Assembly (NCBI GenBank): GCA_021323535.1
Contig: JAJONO010000003.1
Location: 1 to 64,000, forward strand
Origin: Bacteroidota bacterium
GTDB taxonomy: Bacteria > Bacteroidota > Bacteroidia > B-17B0 > Aurantibacillaceae
DNA: 64,000 bases
Direction: 5' to 3'
The position numbers and the translations under genes were made by a program. Under the pieces are notes generated by a model. That model searched no databases. It worked only from the letters and a program-made list of their open reading frames with translations, and had not been told where the DNA came from. This document shows, in pieces, positions 50,149 to 60,376 of the stretch. How positions within the stretch are numbered: the first letter of the stretch is position 1; each line of letters begins with the position of its first letter.

Positions 50149-53100
50149 TTATTCAATGATCAGTTTCTGACTACCGATCGTTTTATTACCTTCTGTTATT
50201 TTTACAAGGTATAAACCACTTTTAAGTTCTTTGGTGTTTAATACATGAGTAGAAGTTCCGGTTGAAAGTTGTTGCTGAATCACAATTTTTCCAGTGATAT
50301 CCATTACCATAACTTCGGTTGTATTTGTAAGTCCACGTGTATCAAAATACAGGTTGGTGTATTCTTTAGAAGGATTAGGATACAACTTGAACGATTTCAT
50401 TTCTGATGCCGACCAATTATTATTTGCCGGTTTAGGAGATGTTTTCGCCTGTGAAGGAAGATCAATGAATTCGAAATGCCTGCCATCATTGATCAGTTTG
50501 TTCAATGCTAAAGCCGAAGGATAGGCCACATCTGCCTGGTTTCTGAGAACAGATGCAATTACTGACTGAAGCTGACCGTCTTTTTTCATATCGTTGATTG
50601 AAGCACCATTCTTTTTCGACTGAAGAAGTAGTTTCTGAATAGCCATGTAATTAACGTATTCGTCTTTTGTTTCTATTGTAGAAAGCAGCTGACCTGCTTC
50701 AGAAAGTTTGTTATATGAAAGATAAGCTGCCAACAGATGGTATTTTGCATCAGGTCTGTCGTCTGTTTTCATAATTTCAAGAATATTATTTTCATCGCTT
50801 TCCTGCTCCAGCATGGTTCTGATCATTTGATCGATCATAACGCCTTTTTCATGATTGAGTTCAGATAATTCACTGGTAATAGCTGAACTGTTATCGGTTT
50901 CCGCTTTTTTCAACAGTTCTGCAATTCTTGTGTTTTTTTCTGCAATAACCTGTTTTATATCTGAAGGCATCGTTTTTTGGCTACTACCGCTACCGCTACC
51001 GCTACCGCCACCAAGTACTGCAGGACACATAGATGATACATAACCGGTGGAAAGAGGCGAATTCACAAATAAAGAATTGTCATAATAAAATGGTTGTGTC
51101 CATGAACCGCTAACCGGGTTGTAATAATACTGGATAGAGTTTGCGGCCCCTGGTGATCCGAAGAAACCATTATCCATATAATCCGACATAAGCGCGGGAT
51201 TAGAATTATTGGTATGAGAAAAGAAGTTGTTCGCTCCACCGCTCGTAGAACCCTGAGCTTTATCTATTCTGCCATTATAACCGAGCGTGGCATCCCATGC
51301 CATGTATAAATCGGTATAGTTTAAACCGTTCACACCTTGGCCGTATTGGTTACATTTAAATTTAAGTCCGTCGCCGGGATTTGTTCCCTGGTTATCGCCG
51401 TAAACAGTTGAACCCGCTCCCATCATGTTTATATTGTTGCGGTACACCAAATTATTTAAACCATTCGATTTATTAATACATATTCCGGTAGCAAGACTAA
51501 GATTGTAGTTTGATGTTTGCGTTGTCCAGATAGTATTATTAGAGATGTCGTAAGCGGAAGAGTTTTCAAAATAAATTCCGTACGGAAGAAATGGAATACT
51601 GTTTAATCCCTGGCCCACATTTATTCTGTTGTTGGTTGCTACTGTGTAATAAGTTCCTCCAATGTAAATGGACCTGTTACAGTTAGTAAAATCATTATTG
51701 TTTACAATAACATTTGATGCGGGAACACCATTCTGTACCTGTACGCCATAATGAAGGTTATTGAAGGTGGAAGGATTGTTTGTTGAATAAGCGGCACATC
51801 CGTTCGGACCCCATAACGAACACACCTGGTAGCGGTCTACAGTATAACTTGCGTCGATGCTGTAAAAACCACTACCTCTTTTATCGATTGCCGGTAACGG
51901 ACTTCTTGTGTTCTGATATGTATTCCCCCTGTATTGAATACCACGAACTTCCCACATAGAAATGAATACATTAGGATCAGGATTTCCGGCCATTTTTAAA
52001 ACGTCATTTGTTTCAAATAAAGAATTTCTTATATAACCGATATTTGCAATGATTGTTGTGTAGGTTGGATTGTAATTCTGATAGCTCAGATATTGAATGG
52101 CTTTGATGTTATTGATAAATTGTGCGCCATCACACTGTATAATTCCTCCTGTATATCCACCCCAGTCCCAGTTTCCATTCTCATCGTACTTGATGGTGGT
52201 AATTGCATTATCTGCATCTTTCACAGTTCCCTGGTTTATGATACGTACAATTCCCTGGTCGGTGCTTAAGCCATTGCTTCCAATCAACTGGCGTATGCTG
52301 CTTGTTCCCCAAACTTGTATCCCCTGCCAGCCTTTGCACCACGAATAAATTTCACCGCCGTCAATAATAAGACGTGCGCCGCGTTCAACAATGATCCTGC
52401 CTGCATTTGCCATTCCAACTTTACATTTAATTGTAAGAGTGGCTCCGGGTTTTACAATAATGTCCCTGTACATTTGAATATCAAAATCCCACGTTTCATT
52501 TGCTGTAATGTTCCATGGTGCCTGGTAACTCGACGTCATTTCTTTAGCGAATTTTCTTAGACCGTTTCCGCCTGTGCCCGGGGCGAGATGCAGGTTACGA
52601 ATGCGACGCCCCATTTGAAGAGGAGTGATCCAACCCATACCAAGACAGCCACCACCGCTCATTACGTTATTGGTACAAATGGTAGATCCGTTCTCATAAC
52701 AAACATTGCAAGGATTAGTACCGGTTGGACAATTTGGATTATTGATCGGGAAAAGATCGCTTAAGAAATCCGGGGTTGCACACGGCGCATCCGGACAACA
52801 ACTTGTTCCGTAAGTATGTCCCCAACCACAGGTATGACCAATTTCATGACGTAAATGTTCGCCACACCACCAAAGACCCATAGGTGGAGCAACCACAAAT
52901 GTATGAACGAAAGGCCCGTTAGAATTAGCGCTGGCATAACCGGCAGCACCAAGATAATATCCATTGTTGAAAATGATTGGTAAGCCTTCGTTAAGTCGGG
53001 CAGGATCGGCAGCTGTTATTGCATTGAAAATATGCGTGTCGTTATATGTACTGCTAACGGCGGCAACATTCAGATTATCGTCGTTATAAAAGTAAATGTT

Positions 53101-53544
53101 AGTGAGTTCGTAATTTACTTTTGAGTCGCTGATAAACGGTGGAGGAACAAATCCAGGCACAGTGTAGTTCGCATTCCTTGGATCAGAATAACGGTCGTAA
53201 CCATTGTGGATCCAGTTGGCTATCTGTGTGAGATTAGCAATTCCCATTGGTGTATTTGGCCAGCTTCCGGTCCCGTTCGTTTTATTAAAAACGTGAAACG
53301 TAATTTTAATGGTGATCACCGGATCGTTGGTTGTTGGTACGTAAGTAGATTGTTTACTGTACTTATTTGTATAGTCTGATGATGTTGCGGTACATACCAG
53401 GGCTTGTGTTGAAGGAGAATTATCTGTCTGCACAAAACCGCCACAGTTTATCCCTTGCGGCTTTGCCAGTCTGTCGCTCTGGGCCCACATGCCTGTTCCC
53501 AGAACAAGGCCGAGCATAATTAATTTTATTGATTTTAAATTCAT
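50149..53544 (-). CDS. T9SS-exported M43-type (pappalysin-like) metalloprotease with beta-helix
   Basis: 1131 residues. The signal peptide (LKSIKLIMLGLVLGTGMWAQ) is followed by a protease domain with the extended zinc motif HEIGHTCGWGH (residues 233-243), HExxHxxGxxH as in pappalysin-like M43 enzymes. Cysteine-rich CCPDAPCATPDFLSDLFP and NPCNVCYENG segments follow. A right-handed beta-helix begins around ADNAITTIKYDENGNWDWGG and covers about residues 400-760. A Gly-Ser linker (GGGSGSGSGSS), a helical region and a type A sorting domain (KLYPNPSKEYTNL ... SQKLIIE) complete it. It should act outside the cell on proteins or peptides. Specificity is unknown; the beta-helix may bind carbohydrate or the cell surface (inference). 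Confidence 0.88.
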   Translation of the reverse strand: MNLKSIKLIMLGLVLGTGMWAQSDRLAKPQGINCGGFVQTDNSPSTQALVCTATSSDYTNKYSKQSTYVPTTNDPVITIKITFHVFNKTNGTGSWPNTPMGIANLTQIANWIHNGYDRYSDPRNANYTVPGFVPPPFISDSKVNYELTNIYFYNDDNLNVAAVSSTYNDTHIFNAITAADPARLNEGLPIIFNNGYYLGAAGYASANSNGPFVHTFVVAPPMGLWWCGEHLRHEIGHTCGWGHTYGTSCCPDAPCATPDFLSDLFPINNPNCPTGTNPCNVCYENGSTICTNNVMSGGGCLGMGWITPLQMGRRIRNLHLAPGTGGNGLRKFAKEMTSSYQAPWNITANETWDFDIQMYRDIIVKPGATLTIKCKVGMANAGRIIVERGARLIIDGGEIYSWCKGWQGIQVWGTSSIRQLIGSNGLSTDQGIVRIINQGTVKDADNAITTIKYDENGNWDWGGYTGGIIQCDGAQFINNIKAIQYLSYQNYNPTYTTIIANIGYIRNSLFETNDVLKMAGNPDPNVFISMWEVRGIQYRGNTYQNTRSPLPAIDKRGSGFYSIDASYTVDRYQVCSLWGPNGCAAYSTNNPSTFNNLHYGVQVQNGVPASNVIVNNNDFTNCNRSIYIGGTYYTVATNNRINVGQGLNSIPFLPYGIYFENSSAYDISNNTIWTTQTSNYNLSLATGICINKSNGLNNLVYRNNINMMGAGSTVYGDNQGTNPGDGLKFKCNQYGQGVNGLNYTDLYMAWDATLGYNGRIDKAQGSTSGGANNFFSHTNNSNPALMSDYMDNGFFGSPGAANSIQYYYNPVSGSWTQPFYYDNSLFVNSPLSTGYVSSMCPAVLGGGSGSGSGSSQKTMPSDIKQVIAEKNTRIAELLKKAETDNSSAITSELSELNHEKGVMIDQMIRTMLEQESDENNILEIMKTDDRPDAKYHLLAAYLSYNKLSEAGQLLSTIETKDEYVNYMAIQKLLLQSKKNGASINDMKKDGQLQSVIASVLRNQADVAYPSALALNKLINDGRHFEFIDLPSQAKTSPKPANNNWSASEMKSFKLYPNPSKEYTNLYFDTRGLTNTTEVMVMDITGKIVIQQQLSTGTSTHVLNTKELKSGLYLVKITEGNKTIGSQKLIIE

Positions 53545-53881
53545 AGTATGAGGTTTAATTGATTTTTAAAAATGAAAATTCGATAGGTTTAAACTACCTA
53601 TGCATCCGAAAAATATACCCGTAGTTTCCCCATGTAGATGTAACTTGTTTATACCGCGCCGGGGAAAATGACGCTGCGTTGTAATATGTTGTTACAAAAG
53701 TACCGCACACCTGCGGTACTTTGTTTTTTCATTCGAGGGGATTTACCTGGGTGAAAACCCAGATATTAAATGAAGTACCTCACGAAACTATAAATAAACA
53801 ATGTATTATAGTATTCCAAATTAGCATCTGTGTGGTTTGAATGTATAAGTGGTTGGTTCTTTTGAGAATTCAGATTATAAA
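53545..53881. other. Gene-free stretch upstream of the metalloprotease
   Basis: No credible reading frame. It holds an imperfect palindrome TAGGTTTAAACTACCTA (from 53585) 40 bases before the metalloprotease start. A strong hairpin AAAGTACCGCA (53697-53707) / TGCGGTACTTT (53712-53722) is followed by T-rich sequence. A second small hairpin CTGGGT (53747-53752) / ACCCAG (53757-53762) follows. The first may be an operator; the second looks like an orphan + strand terminator. Confidence 0.5.
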
Positions 53882-53921
53882 TAAAAAAACATCCCGTAGT
53901 TTTTTATTCTACGGGATGTTT
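53882..53921 (-). terminator. Terminator after the T9SS propeller gene
   Basis: AACATCCCGTAG pairs with CTACGGGATGTT (53909-53920); read on the minus strand, the stem is followed by a T7 run. Confidence 0.9.
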
Positions 53922-53943
53922 AAATTTTAGAGAAGAGGGGGAA

Positions 53944-55212
53944 TTATTCAGTAATAATAAGTTTTCCATTAATTGATTTACCAGAGTAAATCAACTCATA
54001 AAAATAAATTCCTGTTTCCAGATTTTCATTTTTCAGTTCAAAAGAATTGCCATTGACATTACTTATTGTTTTTACTTTTTGCCCCATGGAATTATAAATC
54101 AAAATTTCTCCATCGTTGATCGATTCATTAAATCGGAATGTGGTTGAGGAATTAAACGGATTCGGATATAATTTAAGACTATTTTTAGATGCTTCATTTG
54201 AATTGATCCCCACGATCTGCGAAGCATTTGCAGTTTTCCATACACCACAATCTGTTCCGGCATAAAGTGTGGTTCCTACCATTACAAAAGCACGAACGTT
54301 GATCTGGTTGCAATACCAGTTTCCAAAACTGTCTTTAAAACCCTGGTTGTAATCAACCCACGTTACACCATTATCATTCGATAACAGAACACCTGCGCCT
54401 TCGGTTCCGGCATAAATACTTGTGTCACCCGCATAAATGGCATACACAGGTTTGTTGTTGAATAATGAGTTGTTTGACTGAACCCAGTTGGTGCCCATGT
54501 CAGATGAACGGTACATAACAGGTGATCCTGAAATATTTCCAGCTAAGAAGTTAGAATCTTTTACCGCGATGGCTTGAATGTAATCGTCATAAGTTCCCAT
54601 ACCATTTGAAATGGAAGTAAAATTATCCGCGCTGGTTGGTGAAGTAAAAACACCATGGCCATATAGCCCCACAATAATATTGTTACCGCTTATTGCCATT
54701 GATCGAACATCTATATTTGCGCCTCCGATAGTATTTGAAAACCCATTTACGAAAGAATTCCAGGTTGAAGAACTTATATTGGTAAGTGAGGATTTCATAA
54801 CACCTGCACAACCACCGAAGGTTCCTATATAAATATCGTTTCCTTCAATAAGAATAGCTCTTACATCGCAATTTAATCCTGGTGGTGTAATTTCAGTCCA
54901 GTTTAAACCCAGATCGCTGGATTTAAATACCTGTGATCCTGCTCCGACAAAAAGATCGCTGCCTAAAGAGGTAATACAATAAACCTGCATTCCGGGATAA
55001 GCTCCATTTCTTTGTTGCCAGGTCGTTCCATTATCGGATGAATAGTAAACCCCACCATTCGAGGCGCCTGCGAAAATATCGTTTCCAATGGCTGTGAGTC
55101 CCCATATGCTGCCTCCTGGAGGCGTTGTGGTTTGTTGCCAATTCGCATTTTGTGAATGACTAATAATCGTTGTAAGAACGAATACAATAAGTAGGATAAA
55201 GTTTTTTTTCAT
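53944..55212 (-). CDS. T9SS protein with Asp-box (sialidase/photosystem-like) propeller
   Basis: 422 residues. The signal peptide (MKKNFILLIVFVLTTIISHSQ) is followed by a beta-propeller with regularly spaced Asp-boxes: SSDNGTTWQQRNG, SSDLGLNWTEI, SSDMGTNWVQSN and SNDNGVTWVDYN, alternating with GNDIFAGASNGGVYYS-type strands. A type A sorting domain ends it (KLYPNPFNSSTTF ... NGKLIITE). Asp-box propellers occur in sialidases, but I see no catalytic sialidase arginine triad pattern, so a binding or structural role is as likely. It has its own terminator and is the second T9SS cargo gene of this minus-strand pair. Confidence 0.85.
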   Translation of the reverse strand: MKKNFILLIVFVLTTIISHSQNANWQQTTTPPGGSIWGLTAIGNDIFAGASNGGVYYSSDNGTTWQQRNGAYPGMQVYCITSLGSDLFVGAGSQVFKSSDLGLNWTEITPPGLNCDVRAILIEGNDIYIGTFGGCAGVMKSSLTNISSSTWNSFVNGFSNTIGGANIDVRSMAISGNNIIVGLYGHGVFTSPTSADNFTSISNGMGTYDDYIQAIAVKDSNFLAGNISGSPVMYRSSDMGTNWVQSNNSLFNNKPVYAIYAGDTSIYAGTEGAGVLLSNDNGVTWVDYNQGFKDSFGNWYCNQINVRAFVMVGTTLYAGTDCGVWKTANASQIVGINSNEASKNSLKLYPNPFNSSTTFRFNESINDGEILIYNSMGQKVKTISNVNGNSFELKNENLETGIYFYELIYSGKSINGKLIITE

Positions 55213-55422: not shown

Positions 55423-56979
55423 TTACTTGGCATAGCCGGTAGCTCTCGTTTCCCTGATCACAGTCACTTTCACCTGACCCGGGTAAGTCATTTCGGTTTG
55501 AATGCGTTGCGAAATTTCGAAAGCAAGTTGTTCCGCTCTTCCGTCACTTACTTTATCGCTTGAAACAATCACACGTAATTCTCTTCCTGCCTGTATAGCG
55601 TAAGTCTTTTCAACGCCATCATAACTCTGAGCCAATGCTTCTAGATCTTTTAGACGTTTCATATATTGTTCAGCGATCTCGCGGCGTGCACCCGGACGGG
55701 CACCGCTGATAGCATCACACACCTGGATGATCGGCGAATACAACGATGTCATTTCAATTTCATCGTGGTGAGCTCCGATCGCGTTACATACTTCAGGTTT
55801 TTCTTTATACTTCTCGGCCAGCTTCATTCCAAGAAGAGCGTGTGGTAACTCTGGCTCGTCATCAGGAACTTTTCCGATATCGTGTAACAATCCGGCACGC
55901 TTGGCTACTTTAGGATTCAGACCCATTTCGCTGGCCATAATACCACAAAGGTTAGCCACTTCGCGACTGTGTTGTAATAAGTTTTGTCCGTAAGACGAAC
56001 GGTATTTCATTCTTCCAACCATACGGATCAGCTCCGGATGTAATCCATGAATACCGAGATCAATGCAGGTACGTTTTCCTGTTTCAATGATCTCTTCTTC
56101 AATCATCTTTTTAGTTTTCTCAACTACTTCTTCAATACGCGCCGGGTGAATGCGCCCGTCTGTTACTAACTGATGTAAAGCAAGGCGGCAGATCTCACGA
56201 CGGATAGAATCAAAACAACTTAATGTAATGGCATCAGGAGTATCGTCTACAATGATCTCAACACCGGTTGCTGCTTCCAACGCGCGAATGTTACGTCCTT
56301 CACGTCCAATGATACGTCCTTTTGTTTCGTCACCTTCAATATGAAATACCGAAATAGAATTTTCAATAGCGGCTTCTGTTGCAACACGCTGAATGGTTTG
56401 AATAACAATTTTCTTAGCTTCTTTGTTGGCCGAAATTTTAGCTTCGTCCATAATATCTTTGATGTAAGCCATCGCCTGGGTTTTGGCTTCACTCTTGATC
56501 GATTCTACCAGCTGTATTTTAGCGTCTTCTGCTTTAAGTCCGCTGATTTTCTCGAGCATTTCTACCTGTTTACGGTGACCTTTTTCAACTTCTTCGTGGC
56601 GTTGCTTGTAAATTTCAATTTGCTGTTGCGCCTGGCTCTTGATGTTCTCAACTTCTTTGTCCTTTCGGTTAAGGTCCTCAATTTTTTTATTGAGGTCGCC
56701 TTCTTTTTGCTTGAGTTTGTTTTCGGTCTGGGCTATCTGGCTGTTTTTTTCCTGAACGGCTTTATCGTGTTCCGATTTCAGCTGAAGAAATTTTTCTTTG
56801 GCTTGTAGGATCTTTTCCTGTTTGGTGGCTTCAGCTTTTACTTCGGCCTCTTTGATCATGTTCTCTTTTTCTTTTTTAGCTGCTTTGTTCAGTTTACTGC
56901 CGGCTAAGATGTAGCCAACGATGATTCCTACAATGAGAGCTCCGCCTCCGGCAATTAAAGCTATTGTCAATATATTCAT
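55423..56979 (-). CDS. rny: Ribonuclease Y
   Basis: RNase Y is a membrane-bound endoribonuclease that starts mRNA decay. The 518-residue form from ATG 56979 ([20 protein letters not shown]) is preferred because it puts the membrane helix at the N-terminus, as in the family; the frame extends ten codons further. A long coiled coil (about 30-200) is followed by the KH domain ([20 protein letters not shown]) and the HD domain with its metal site ([20 protein letters not shown]). The family C-terminus [20 protein letters not shown] is intact. It lies downstream of zapA, a gene order common in Bacteroidota. Confidence 0.96.
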
Positions 56980-57040
56980 ATTCTTCTTTCTTTTTTTAAA
57001 CTCAGTCACCTTCGCGGGGGCTTAGATGAGTAAGCTGGGG

Positions 57041-57139: not shown

Positions 57140-57448
57140 CTATTCGGTTAATTTGTTAATGTCTTGGACATGTTGCTGTAACATTTCCTCCACACTGGCA
57201 AACAGTTGTTTTAAATCACTTAATTCTCTTTCGGCTGTATTGGCCTGTTTGTATAGCTGTGATACCAGCTGCAACATAACCATACTCAACACATCCTTCT
57301 TATCTTTAACCGGATAATTCCTTTCGAACTCACCCAGTTTAGTATTTATTAAGTTAACAGCCTCTTTAATGTTTTGCTCGTCGGTCGAATCCACTTTCAA
57401 GGGAAAGATGCTTCCGGCAATTTCAACTTTTATGTTTACTTCGCTCAT
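57140..57448 (-). CDS. zapA: Cell division protein ZapA
   Basis: 102 residues. ZapA crosslinks FtsZ filaments at midcell. The globular head (NIKVEIAGSIFPLKVDSTDEQ, then IKEAVNLINTKLGEF) is followed by the dimerising coiled coil (ANTAERELSDLKQLFASVEEMLQQHV). Length and pattern match Bacteroidota ZapA. It begins 18 bases after the stop of the hendecad coiled-coil gene, so they are probably cotranscribed. Confidence 0.9.
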   Translation of the reverse strand: MSEVNIKVEIAGSIFPLKVDSTDEQNIKEAVNLINTKLGEFERNYPVKDKKDVLSMVMLQLVSQLYKQANTAERELSDLKQLFASVEEMLQQHVQDINKLTE

Positions 57449-57466
57449 TTAAAGAGGGCGTTAAAA

Positions 57467-59929
57467 TTAAGCACTCAACAACGCTATGCACTTATCAATT
57501 TCACGCACCAAATCGTTTATTTGTTTTTTCATCTGCGACTTTTCAGTCCCATTTGAATTACCTGCTAAAATAATATTTTTACGGTGATTATTCAAGTCTG
57601 TTACATCAATATTCTGACTATCAACATGTTGCGATAAACCGCTAATAACGTCGTTCATTTTTAACAATTGAGTTGCCATCTGTTCTTTTTCGTTTAAAAG
57701 ACTTAAACGTTCGTCGTTCAGGGCATCAATTTGTTTGAAGAGTCGGTCAATAAAAGCTTCCTGTTCCTCAGCATTGCTCGAATTCCTTAACAGATCGAGT
57801 TCGGTTTCATAACCCGACATTTTTTCGTTCAGTTCAGAAACACTTGAGTTTAATCCACCAATTGTGTTTTGCAACATATTGATTTCCGATAAGAGATTGT
57901 GTTTCTCAGAATTAAGGATATCGTAGTTATGTTGTAACGAAGTTAACTGTTCGCTTGATTGCGAAGAAAGTTCGGTCTCGGCCCTTAAACTTTCAATCTC
58001 CAGTTTTAAAGAAGTGATCTCGGTTTCAAGAGCGGCATTTGTTCCCTGGAGATTGGTGATCTCAAAGTTTTTAGAGCTTAATGTTTCTTTTAATTCTTCA
58101 ACTCTGCCAACACTTGAAGCGTTCAACTCGTCTAATTCTGTTTTCAGCAAAGCAATTTCAGATTCCTGCGCTTCTACTTTATCCTGCGCAAGGTCAATTT
58201 CATTGATCAGGTTGGTGTTTTCTGCCAGTAATTTCTGAAATTCTACATCTTTACTTTGTAATTGTTGTTGCGAAGATGTTTCAAGTTCTGATTTAAATTC
58301 TTCAAAAGCCTGTTCTTTTTCAGAAACAGATGCATGAAGGTTATTGATCTCGGCGTGTAATTTCTGAATGGCTTCTTCCGAATTTTCTAATTCAAGCGAT
58401 TTCAAATCAAGTTTAGATTCAGTTTCCGCAAGCACATTGGTTGTGTTTTCAAAAAGAAGGCCAAGGTTCTGGATCTCTGAATTCAGATTTTCGATCTGTG
58501 AATTTAACTGATTCACCTGCTCTGAAGAAGATAAAGAAGAAGTTTGTCTGAAGCTTTCAAATTCTGAAGTGATAGAGCTTACTTTTTCTGCTTCTGCTTT
58601 TAATAAGGTTTCAAAATGACTGATCTGATTGTTCAATGTTTCAATGACAGAATTCTGTCCGTCGATGTGAACCACCAGTTCTCTCACTTTTTCTTTAAAA
58701 TGATCGTTCTCTAATTGCGCTTTGCTGAGTTCTTCTGTTAGTTTAGAGTTTTGTGAGTTGGAATGAATTAAAGTATTCGATAATTTCTCTTCATAAGAGT
58801 TTGTGATCCCGTTGATCTTTGATTCGTGAGATGAGATCATTTCAGAAACAATTGATTCGTGCGACGATGTTAATTCACTGATTCTTGTTTCATAAGAAGA
58901 AGTAAGTTCGCTGATGTTTGTTTCATGCGTACTTGTAAGATTGCTTACAATAGAATCGTGCGATGCTTTCAGTTCTGCAATATGCGATTCAAAAGAAGTG
59001 GTCAATCCTTCAGAAGTAGAGGTAGAGCTTGCTCTTAATTCGTTTATCTGGTTTTCATAATCAGAAATTAATCGTTGTTCTCTATTAGAAAATTCCTGTG
59101 TTAATGTGTCAAGCCCCGATTTAAGATCATTGGTTAATGTATTACGCTGCTCTTCCATCTGAAGTTTCAGTGTAGAGATCTCATTCTGGTAAGCGTACTT
59201 AATAGCATCGATCTTTGTAGAATATGTTTCTTCAAGATTAGCAATGGCCGTGGCGTGAGACTGGGTTAAAGAACTGATCTCAGTTTCGCTTCCGATTGTA
59301 AGTTTACTGATCTGTGAACTGTAATCGTTCTTTAAAAAAGTGATTTCTTCCTGGTGCGATGATTTAAGAGAAAGAAGTTCTTCGCTATGTTTTAAGTTAA
59401 TACTTTCTTCTCTGTCGGCCCAGCCTGAGCTGAGTTCGTTCACACGATTTTCAAATTCTTCTTTAAGACCAAGCTCTTTGTAATGGATATTGGAACGAAG
59501 TTCGTTGATCTGGGTAGTATATTCTTCGGTAACACGTTCAAGTTCTGTGGCGGCTTCAGTTTTAACCGATTCAATACGACGTTCGTAAACAGAGGCAATA
59601 TCATTAAGTTCGCTGCGAAGCGATTCGATCTCGCTTAAACGAAGCTCTATTTCTTCCTGCTTGGCGTTAAGTTGTTCTTTAATGGTTCCGCGTAATTCCT
59701 TGAATGCGGCCAGTTCTGCTTTGTAGTTGGTATTGTCACGCTCCATTACCGAAAGCTTGGTGTTCAGCACGTCAATCGTCACCTGCAATCTTTTGCAGTC
59801 CTCGTCGCGAAGAATTAACTGGTTGCGATAGTCGCTCAGGGAGCGTTTCAACTCATTAAATTCCTTGCGGAGGGCCATATCACTGTCTAAAACTTGTTGT
59901 AATTCTGTTTTTAGGCTTTCAGCATTCAT
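57467..59929 (-). CDS. Large coiled-coil protein upstream of zapA
   Basis: 820 residues from ATG 59929 (MNAESLKTELQQVL); the TTG nine bases earlier is a less likely start. Nearly all of it is predicted coiled coil. Residues 112-386 form 25 consecutive 11-residue units with hydrophobic residues at fixed positions 4, 8 and 11. The remaining C-terminal half is more ordinary heptad coil. There is no signal peptide, membrane helix or cysteine-rich part, so it is probably cytoplasmic. The C-terminus KKQINDLVREIDKCIALLSA resembles the end of the short coiled-coil protein usually encoded before zapA in Bacteroidota, suggesting this is a greatly enlarged version. A filament or division-linked scaffold role is inferred from architecture and position. 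Confidence 0.88.
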   Translation of the reverse strand: MNAESLKTELQQVLDSDMALRKEFNELKRSLSDYRNQLILRDEDCKRLQVTIDVLNTKLSVMERDNTNYKAELAAFKELRGTIKEQLNAKQEEIELRLSEIESLRSELNDIASVYERRIESVKTEAATELERVTEEYTTQINELRSNIHYKELGLKEEFENRVNELSSGWADREESINLKHSEELLSLKSSHQEEITFLKNDYSSQISKLTIGSETEISSLTQSHATAIANLEETYSTKIDAIKYAYQNEISTLKLQMEEQRNTLTNDLKSGLDTLTQEFSNREQRLISDYENQINELRASSTSTSEGLTTSFESHIAELKASHDSIVSNLTSTHETNISELTSSYETRISELTSSHESIVSEMISSHESKINGITNSYEEKLSNTLIHSNSQNSKLTEELSKAQLENDHFKEKVRELVVHIDGQNSVIETLNNQISHFETLLKAEAEKVSSITSEFESFRQTSSLSSSEQVNQLNSQIENLNSEIQNLGLLFENTTNVLAETESKLDLKSLELENSEEAIQKLHAEINNLHASVSEKEQAFEEFKSELETSSQQQLQSKDVEFQKLLAENTNLINEIDLAQDKVEAQESEIALLKTELDELNASSVGRVEELKETLSSKNFEITNLQGTNAALETEITSLKLEIESLRAETELSSQSSEQLTSLQHNYDILNSEKHNLLSEINMLQNTIGGLNSSVSELNEKMSGYETELDLLRNSSNAEEQEAFIDRLFKQIDALNDERLSLLNEKEQMATQLLKMNDVISGLSQHVDSQNIDVTDLNNHRKNIILAGNSNGTEKSQMKKQINDLVREIDKCIALLSA
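58772..59596 (-). repeat. 25 consecutive 33-bp / 11-residue (hendecad) repeats
   Basis: From ASVYERRIESV to TNSYEEKLSNT the protein divides into 25 units of 11 residues without insertion or deletion. Examples are KTEAATELERV, KSSHQEEITFL, TSTHETNISEL and TSSYETRISEL. Position 11 is almost always Leu or Ile, position 8 usually Ile, Val or Leu, and position 4 often Tyr, His or Phe. The last seven units are closest to each other. Confidence 0.85.
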
Positions 59930-60376
59930 TGAATACAATTTTTGATTTTCATAAAATTATGCACTCACCATGCAGTAAAAGCCTGTATACTATAATATAA
60001 GTAAACATAGCAATGTTAATTAAGACGAACGTTATTAAAAGTGTTTTGTTAATTAAGTAGATGAGGATTTTTTGTAGTTACCACAAGGCTTTCACATGCT
60101 TTTTTGAACAAAAAGATGCCTTTTTGGATAAACTTTTTGTTAAATTAATCAGGTTTAAAAGCTGGGAAATGTGCATTTTAAGACCGTGCCAGAAAAATAA
60201 ATTCTTCCGGAAAGCGAAATTTTAATTTGCAATTGATTGATAATTAAGTCGCATTTTTTTTACGGATTAACTAAATAAACGCCATTTTTTGCTAAAAAAT
60301 TTAGGTTTTCGAAACTTTTCGTTGCTAAATGCGTTATACTATCATAGAAAGACCGAAAAAAAGCCTATTTTTTTTG
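59930..60376. other. A/T-rich intergenic region between divergent coiled-coil and rpoD genes
   Basis: No reading frame or repeat of note. The region contains two TTAATTAA-like stretches (TTAATTAAG near 60015 and 60051) and must hold the promoter of the minus-strand coiled-coil / zapA unit, but I cannot place it with confidence. The unusual length for this compact genome suggests regulation of rpoD or zapA. Confidence 0.5.

Follow-up and report, generated by a model that had tools for sequence, protein, structure and literature searches.

A long coiled-coil protein encoded before zapA in one family of Bacteroidota carries a hendecad array that varies largely in steps of eleven residues

The ZapB protein of Escherichia coli is 81 aa long and binds ZapA and MatP. 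It consists entirely of coiled coil, is tied to FtsZ through ZapA and reaches inwards; it lies some 40 nm to the inside of FtsZ, with MatP about 30 nm further in (PMC4388696). In beta- and gamma-proteobacteria zapB precedes zapA (PMC7641849). Another ZapA partner, ZauP, is described as a functional homolog of the E. coli protein (PMC7188993, PMC7858052), and in Caulobacter zapA and zauP bear the consecutive locus tags CCNA_03356 and CCNA_03357 (PMC7188993). Long coiled coils of 11-residue units (hendecads) are known in bacteria as well: FilP and Scy of Streptomyces, the latter of over 1000 residues and nearly all hendecads, occur near the polarity and division machinery and form dimers with Ala-rich cores (PMC9858780). 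One core residue per hendecad faces the axis, and higher oligomers or small residues avoid clashes there (PMC9858780). The remark in the sequence-only reading of the present locus that hendecad coils are rare at such length has to be tempered by these examples.

The gene described here was found in a 64,000-nucleotide stretch of DNA from uncultured Bacteroidota, which was analysed whole and is referred to as the window. It is located on the minus strand (57467..59929, with the ATG at 59929 and the stop codon ending at 57467), encodes a coiled-coil protein of 820 aa and directly precedes the co-oriented zapA, from which 18 nt separate it (zapA, 57140..57448, minus; PF05164, 55.6 bits against a cut-off of 23.8). 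The gene for RNase Y, rny (55423..57009, minus), lies after zapA, and the region 50149-55212 (minus) encodes two large secreted-looking proteins whose C-terminal sequences resemble type IX sorting signals of Bacteroidota. Scanning the window for Rfam families and tRNAs gave no matches, and a promoter and terminator scan gave no more than shuffled sequence did. Pfam and NCBIfam returned only sub-threshold coil matches for the long protein, and PDB sequence searches with the array described below and with the last 100 residues returned none. The reading preferred here, with a probability of roughly 55%, is that a ZapA partner of the ZapB or ZauP kind has been enlarged into a strut of modular length.

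One third of the protein, residues 112-386 (58772..59596, minus), is made of 25 hendecads with zero insertions or deletions, which bears out the unbroken 25-fold register first read from the letters. The Fourier power of this segment at a period of 11/3 is 39.1, compared with a top value of 13.7 over periods of 3.3-4.0 in 20,000 residue shuffles and with 6.2 for the runner-up among the window's 22 open reading frames of at least 275 aa. Outside the array the 11/3 power is 2.5 (residues 1-111) and 0.3 (residues 387-820), and the periodicity there peaks near 3.5. The N-terminal head and heptad coil that precede the array (59597..59929, minus; residues 1-111) are the best-conserved region, with a mean column identity of 84% over 33 orthologues and some invariant columns, while conservation is lowest in the columns of the array (mean 48%). 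In 32 of 33 orthologues, the main hendecad run starts at residue 102 when the sequence is segmented simply into heptads and hendecads. Tandem Repeats Finder reported no DNA repeat over 57400-60000; a tandem duplication visible in the DNA was thereby ruled out for this region, and the hendecad units are therefore old or diverged.

The expectation of hydrophobic residues at positions 4, 8 and 11 of each unit fitted position 11 (the d position; 24 of 25 units have I, L, V, M or F there) and position 8 (the a position; 20 of 25), but only loosely position 4 (the h position), which holds I, L, M, V, F, Y or W in 15 units, His in 7 and Ala or Ser in 3. It is called loose because all three positions fit jointly, even with His allowed, in only 17 of the 25 units. 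Over 964 units from 45 proteins, I, L, V, M and F make up 76% of position a and 89% of position d, with Ala at 0-2% in both, and position h is occupied by Tyr (35%), Phe (14%), His (14%), Ser (11%), Leu (9%) and Ala (5%). The geometry worked out in this analysis for 11/3 residues per turn points position h at the axis, and the large aromatic residues that occupy it suggest a coil of three or more chains or one that is packed unusually.

An AlphaFold2 model built on an alignment of 27 rows is helical nearly throughout the 820 residues (mean pLDDT 73.1, pTM 0.23). A single helix runs from residue 154 to 334, with breaks at 145-153 and, at low confidence, at 335-358, and shorter ones downstream. 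The array is thus unbroken in its register, but its helix may be interrupted at two places within it according to the model. Beside the first break Y150 and G154 are nearly invariant, and this Tyr/Gly block in the fourth unit (residues 145-154; 59468..59497, minus) is probably a conserved hinge. The distance from residue 20 to an anchor at residue 156, just past the block, is constant in 48 of 49 orthologues.

The C-terminus carries the KINELVREIDKCIALL motif of the coiled-coil protein linked to zapA in Bacteroidota, and its resemblance to that usually short protein, claimed earlier, was confirmed by profile comparison. The last 100 residues match the short-protein profile over 61 columns (hhalign, 98.7%, E 2.5e-16), and other segments give weaker values of 7.4e-5 to 0.2. 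A C-terminal profile gave E 4.9e-22 to the window, a value that is not independent since the window's own end is among the profile rows. Residues 780-820 alone give E 2.6e-17 against the short protein; the direct match rests on the last ~40 residues, because residues 700-800 yield only 0.079. The C-termini of sister genera form a bridge between the two, with E 4.2e-19 (95 columns) to the short protein and 1e-27 (99 columns) to the long one. In 20 of 20 loci read from 20 other families an open reading frame of 89-108 aa lies at most 183 nt before zapA, and 14 of these short frames show the C-terminal motif by pattern. With the ZapB family PF06005, six short relatives reached 22.2 bits at best (gathering score 31.5), and the long protein gave no match at E up to 0.01. 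The terminal segment MKKQINDLVREIDKCIALLSA (57470..57532, minus; residues 800-820), which contains REIDKCIALL and shares homology with the short protein's end, is proposed as a ZapA-binding helix.

In the window's genus, 36 genomes (the window's included) have a zapA match; the gene before zapA is an open reading frame of 540-889 aa, 13-20 nt away, in 33 of them, and three were excluded because the upstream gene is cut by contig ends. Complete members read across the window's family have 415-910 aa, and the gap to zapA is about 13-44 nt in the genera with hendecads and 4-33 nt in their sister genera. A profile built on the final 58 columns matched in 289 of 395 genomes of the class; among the matches listed (150 places), the open frames measure 434-889 aa in the 15 from the window's family and 66-182 aa in the 135 from other families. 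The same profile matched in 61 of 296 genomes of a phylum sample, all within the window's class, the 60 besides the window having open frames of 92-150 aa. Similar orthologue length throughout the phylum, named beforehand as telling against an expansion in this lineage, was not seen in these class and phylum samples. The first 101 residues matched in 22 of 395 class genomes, 14 of them strongly and all in the window's family; the remaining 8 (E 1e-3 to 1e-2) fall in other families and were taken as coil noise. Within the family this segment matched in 71 of 87 genomes. As far as was seen among the genomes sampled, the long form thus appears limited to the window's family.

On a tree of RNase Y (86 rows, quick method, long branches flagged) the window's family is one clade (SH-aLRT 99), in which genera g1, g25, g200, g202, g203 and g198 form an inner clade (SH-aLRT 99) and g26, g199, g201 and g197 lie outside; g1 is not a single clade, G440 of g202 falling inside it beside G024. 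Hendecads mark one subclade of the family. The best 132-residue window of the hendecad proteins has an 11/3 power of 9.0-28.9 (median 19.8; 73 rows, duplicates included), with 14.3 and 18.5 in g198 and 15.2 in g202. Ten forms read from the outside genera, of 415-665 aa and located beside zapA (L182, L189 and others), reach 1.9-5.0, except G421 with 9.3, whose peak near residue 383 is away from the array's place; the two ranges touch at G421 and G024. Because the forms of 415-665 aa in these four sister genera have no array at the position that it takes in the window, the protein was lengthened before hendecads arose in it. The proposal that a short division-linked coil was expanded in this lineage agrees with the ~90-110 aa found elsewhere with the same end motif, with the hendecads as a later step. 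A block with the sequence KVRELVVHIDGQN, referred to as KIREL-HID (58652..58690, minus; residues 414-426), is common to the array-less genera, where it lies at residues 106-135 in 10 of 10 forms. Of 77 rows of long forms the pattern matches 38, with the block at 326-502, and at 414 in the window. Since the block lies at 106-135 where there is no array, the array appears to have been inserted, or to have grown, in the stretch that separates the head from the block. The FIDRLFKQID block (57725..57754, minus; residues 726-735) is also found in sister genera, a FIDKL pattern being present in 9 of the 10 outside forms. Homology between the heads of the long and the sister-genus forms was not above coil noise in profile comparison.

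Genus g198 separates the rod from zapA. In G425 and G426 a coil of 672 and 727 aa, respectively, lies directly before rny, with zapA missing (L201:1995-5824 and L202:1998-6006), and neither PF05164 nor a family ZapA profile matches in any of the four g198 genomes; FtsZ is present in three of them. G427 and G428 have no rny match and may be incomplete there. The g198 C-termini resemble those of the long proteins (95.3%, E 6.7e-9, a comparison made without a control), but they end without REIDKCIALL. Because motif and zapA are both absent in this genus, the simplest reading is that the REIDKCIALL helix binds ZapA; because the rod is kept where zapA is missing, its role is probably not ZapA binding alone, and a second one is indicated. 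The persistence of the rod would also suit a self-assembling cytoplasmic filament in the manner of FilP, Scy or intermediate filaments, forming a network by lateral and end-to-end contacts with ZapA binding as one attachment, as would the length of the protein, its almost wholly helical prediction and its hendecads, which FilP and Scy share (PMC9858780). This explanation is considered unlikely: the long protein has no DivIVA match with E up to 0.01, its score of 18.4 bits for the intermediate filament family PF00038 falls short of the cut-off of 40, and sequence conserved at both ends equally suits a linker with two ends.

The length of the array provides an argument for the strut. Between anchors at residues 156 and 386 the array was measurable in 47 of the 50 orthologues collected; in all 47 the difference in length from the window is an exact multiple of 11, and ten array lengths occur among them. 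From residue 20, with more genera and duplicates removed, this holds for 60 of 63 measurable orthologues (66 collected), with 13 in-phase lengths. The three out of phase are G035, which is much shortened, and G440 and G425, which are diverged and whose anchors are uncertain; G426 was scored in phase and, being as diverged as G425, carries little weight. Array size spans from ~6 units in G035 to ~33 in G463. On the RNase Y tree at least 24 changes of length are required across 54 leaves, and at least 20 across 50 leaves once G035, G440, G425 and G426 are removed. Downstream, the segment 392-465 has the same length in 45 of 47 orthologues and is 7 or 14 residues shorter in two, and later segments are less regular (multiples of 7 in 31 of 47 for 465-590 and in 34 of 48 for 590-745). 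Because the length of the array changes between species almost only by exactly eleven residues, the protein looks like a strut of modular build that belongs to the division machinery. Drift of a coiled coil, with hendecads as an easy route of lengthening and length itself without function, would account for the low conservation of the array columns and the wide span of sizes; it is decidedly improbable, given that most of the subclade preserves the register, the start point, the chemistry of the core and the flanks on either side.

Other loci in which zapA seemed to be missing were also inspected. G053 has no PF05164 match; a diverged short partner and an overlapping ZapA-like frame sit before its rny (L225:580-1409), so that it was rejected as a true absence, and the Pfam ZapA model misses diverged forms such as this one. 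In G049, G427, G428 and G420 neither ZapA nor rny matched, and the locus is unreadable for zapA. In G043, from another family, neither the short partner nor zapA is present before rny (L224:1-1500). That the rod serves mainly RNase Y or another neighbour, with zapA in between by operon inheritance alone, would fit the position of the long gene directly before rny in g198 but is most improbable, since the C-terminal motif is lost exactly there, as expected for a ZapA-binding site, and since G043 lacks both partner and zapA before rny.

In the preferred strut, the C-terminal REIDKCIALL helix would dock on ZapA at the Z ring, and the helical rod would hold the N-terminal head away from it, linking ZapA to inner layers as ZapB or ZauP does. 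With a helix rise of 0.1485 nm per residue, full extension amounts by arithmetic to ~120 nm for the whole protein and ~41 nm for the hendecad segment. This segment, whose register and stepwise length are seen directly, would be near-straight and barely supercoiled, judging from its period, and could gain or lose whole units with the register of the flanking coils undisturbed. The head, being the best-conserved part, is the likely docking site for a second partner. A filament-like scaffold at the division site was proposed in the sequence-only reading and stays a proposal here. In favour of the strut were counted the order of long gene and zapA, which zapB shares in beta- and gamma-proteobacteria (PMC7641849), the C-terminal match, the largely constant length of segment 392-465, the short frame in 20 of 20 loci of other families, the 11-residue steps, the conserved head, the fixed start of the array, the loss of motif and zapA in g198 and the spacing of ZapB and MatP inside FtsZ in E. 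coli (PMC4388696). Against it were counted the g198 rod that outlives ZapA beside rny, the ZapB Pfam scores of the short relatives below cut-off, the 3 of 63 arrays off multiples of 11, the confinement of the direct short-protein match to the last ~40 residues and the head homology at the level of coil noise. A more specific version, tentative and with the odds against it, is a molecular ruler anchored on ZapA, in which a single protein and not a polymer would bridge the gap between the Z ring and an anchor further inside, its reach tuned in evolution by 11-residue (~1.6 nm) steps of a straight coil; the stacked Tyr/Phe/His axis of such a ruler would call for unusual packing or for at least three chains.

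These proteins offer a natural series that links coiled-coil periodicity to division, from the short partner through medium rods to a hendecad rod of quantised length, and including a genus in which the rod is kept while zapA and the C-terminal motif are missing. The series makes testable the idea of a protein ruler that sets how far inner layers lie from the Z ring, and it offers a hendecad core of aromatic and His residues in place of Ala.

A survey of hendecad families is reportedly due to Martinez-Goikoetxea and Lupas. Hendecad scaffolds and zapA-linked coils are each known already; their combination was not met in the literature searched, nor were an expansion across the family, lengthening by 11 residues at a time or an aromatic layer at the axis, and among the matches listed no Bacteroidota zapA-linked coil appeared in titles or abstract beginnings on hendecads and division. 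Caulobacter ZauP is likewise a coiled coil adjacent to zapA, a likeness of gene position and description; it differs in being short (26 kDa with a His-SUMO tag) and proteobacterial (PMC7858052), and the parts of the sources drawn on here do not mention a hendecad array. ZapB is also short and works as a polymer, whereas the Bacteroidota protein would act as one long molecule in the proposed strut. FilP and Scy have a DivIVA-like N-terminal motif and an Ala-rich core, unlike the long protein, whose axis is made of Tyr, Phe and His with Ala at 5%. The unnamed short zapA-linked coil of Bacteroidota shares the gene position and a homologous C-terminal end with the long protein, but at 89-108 aa in the 20 loci read, compared with 415-910 aa, it has no room for hendecads.
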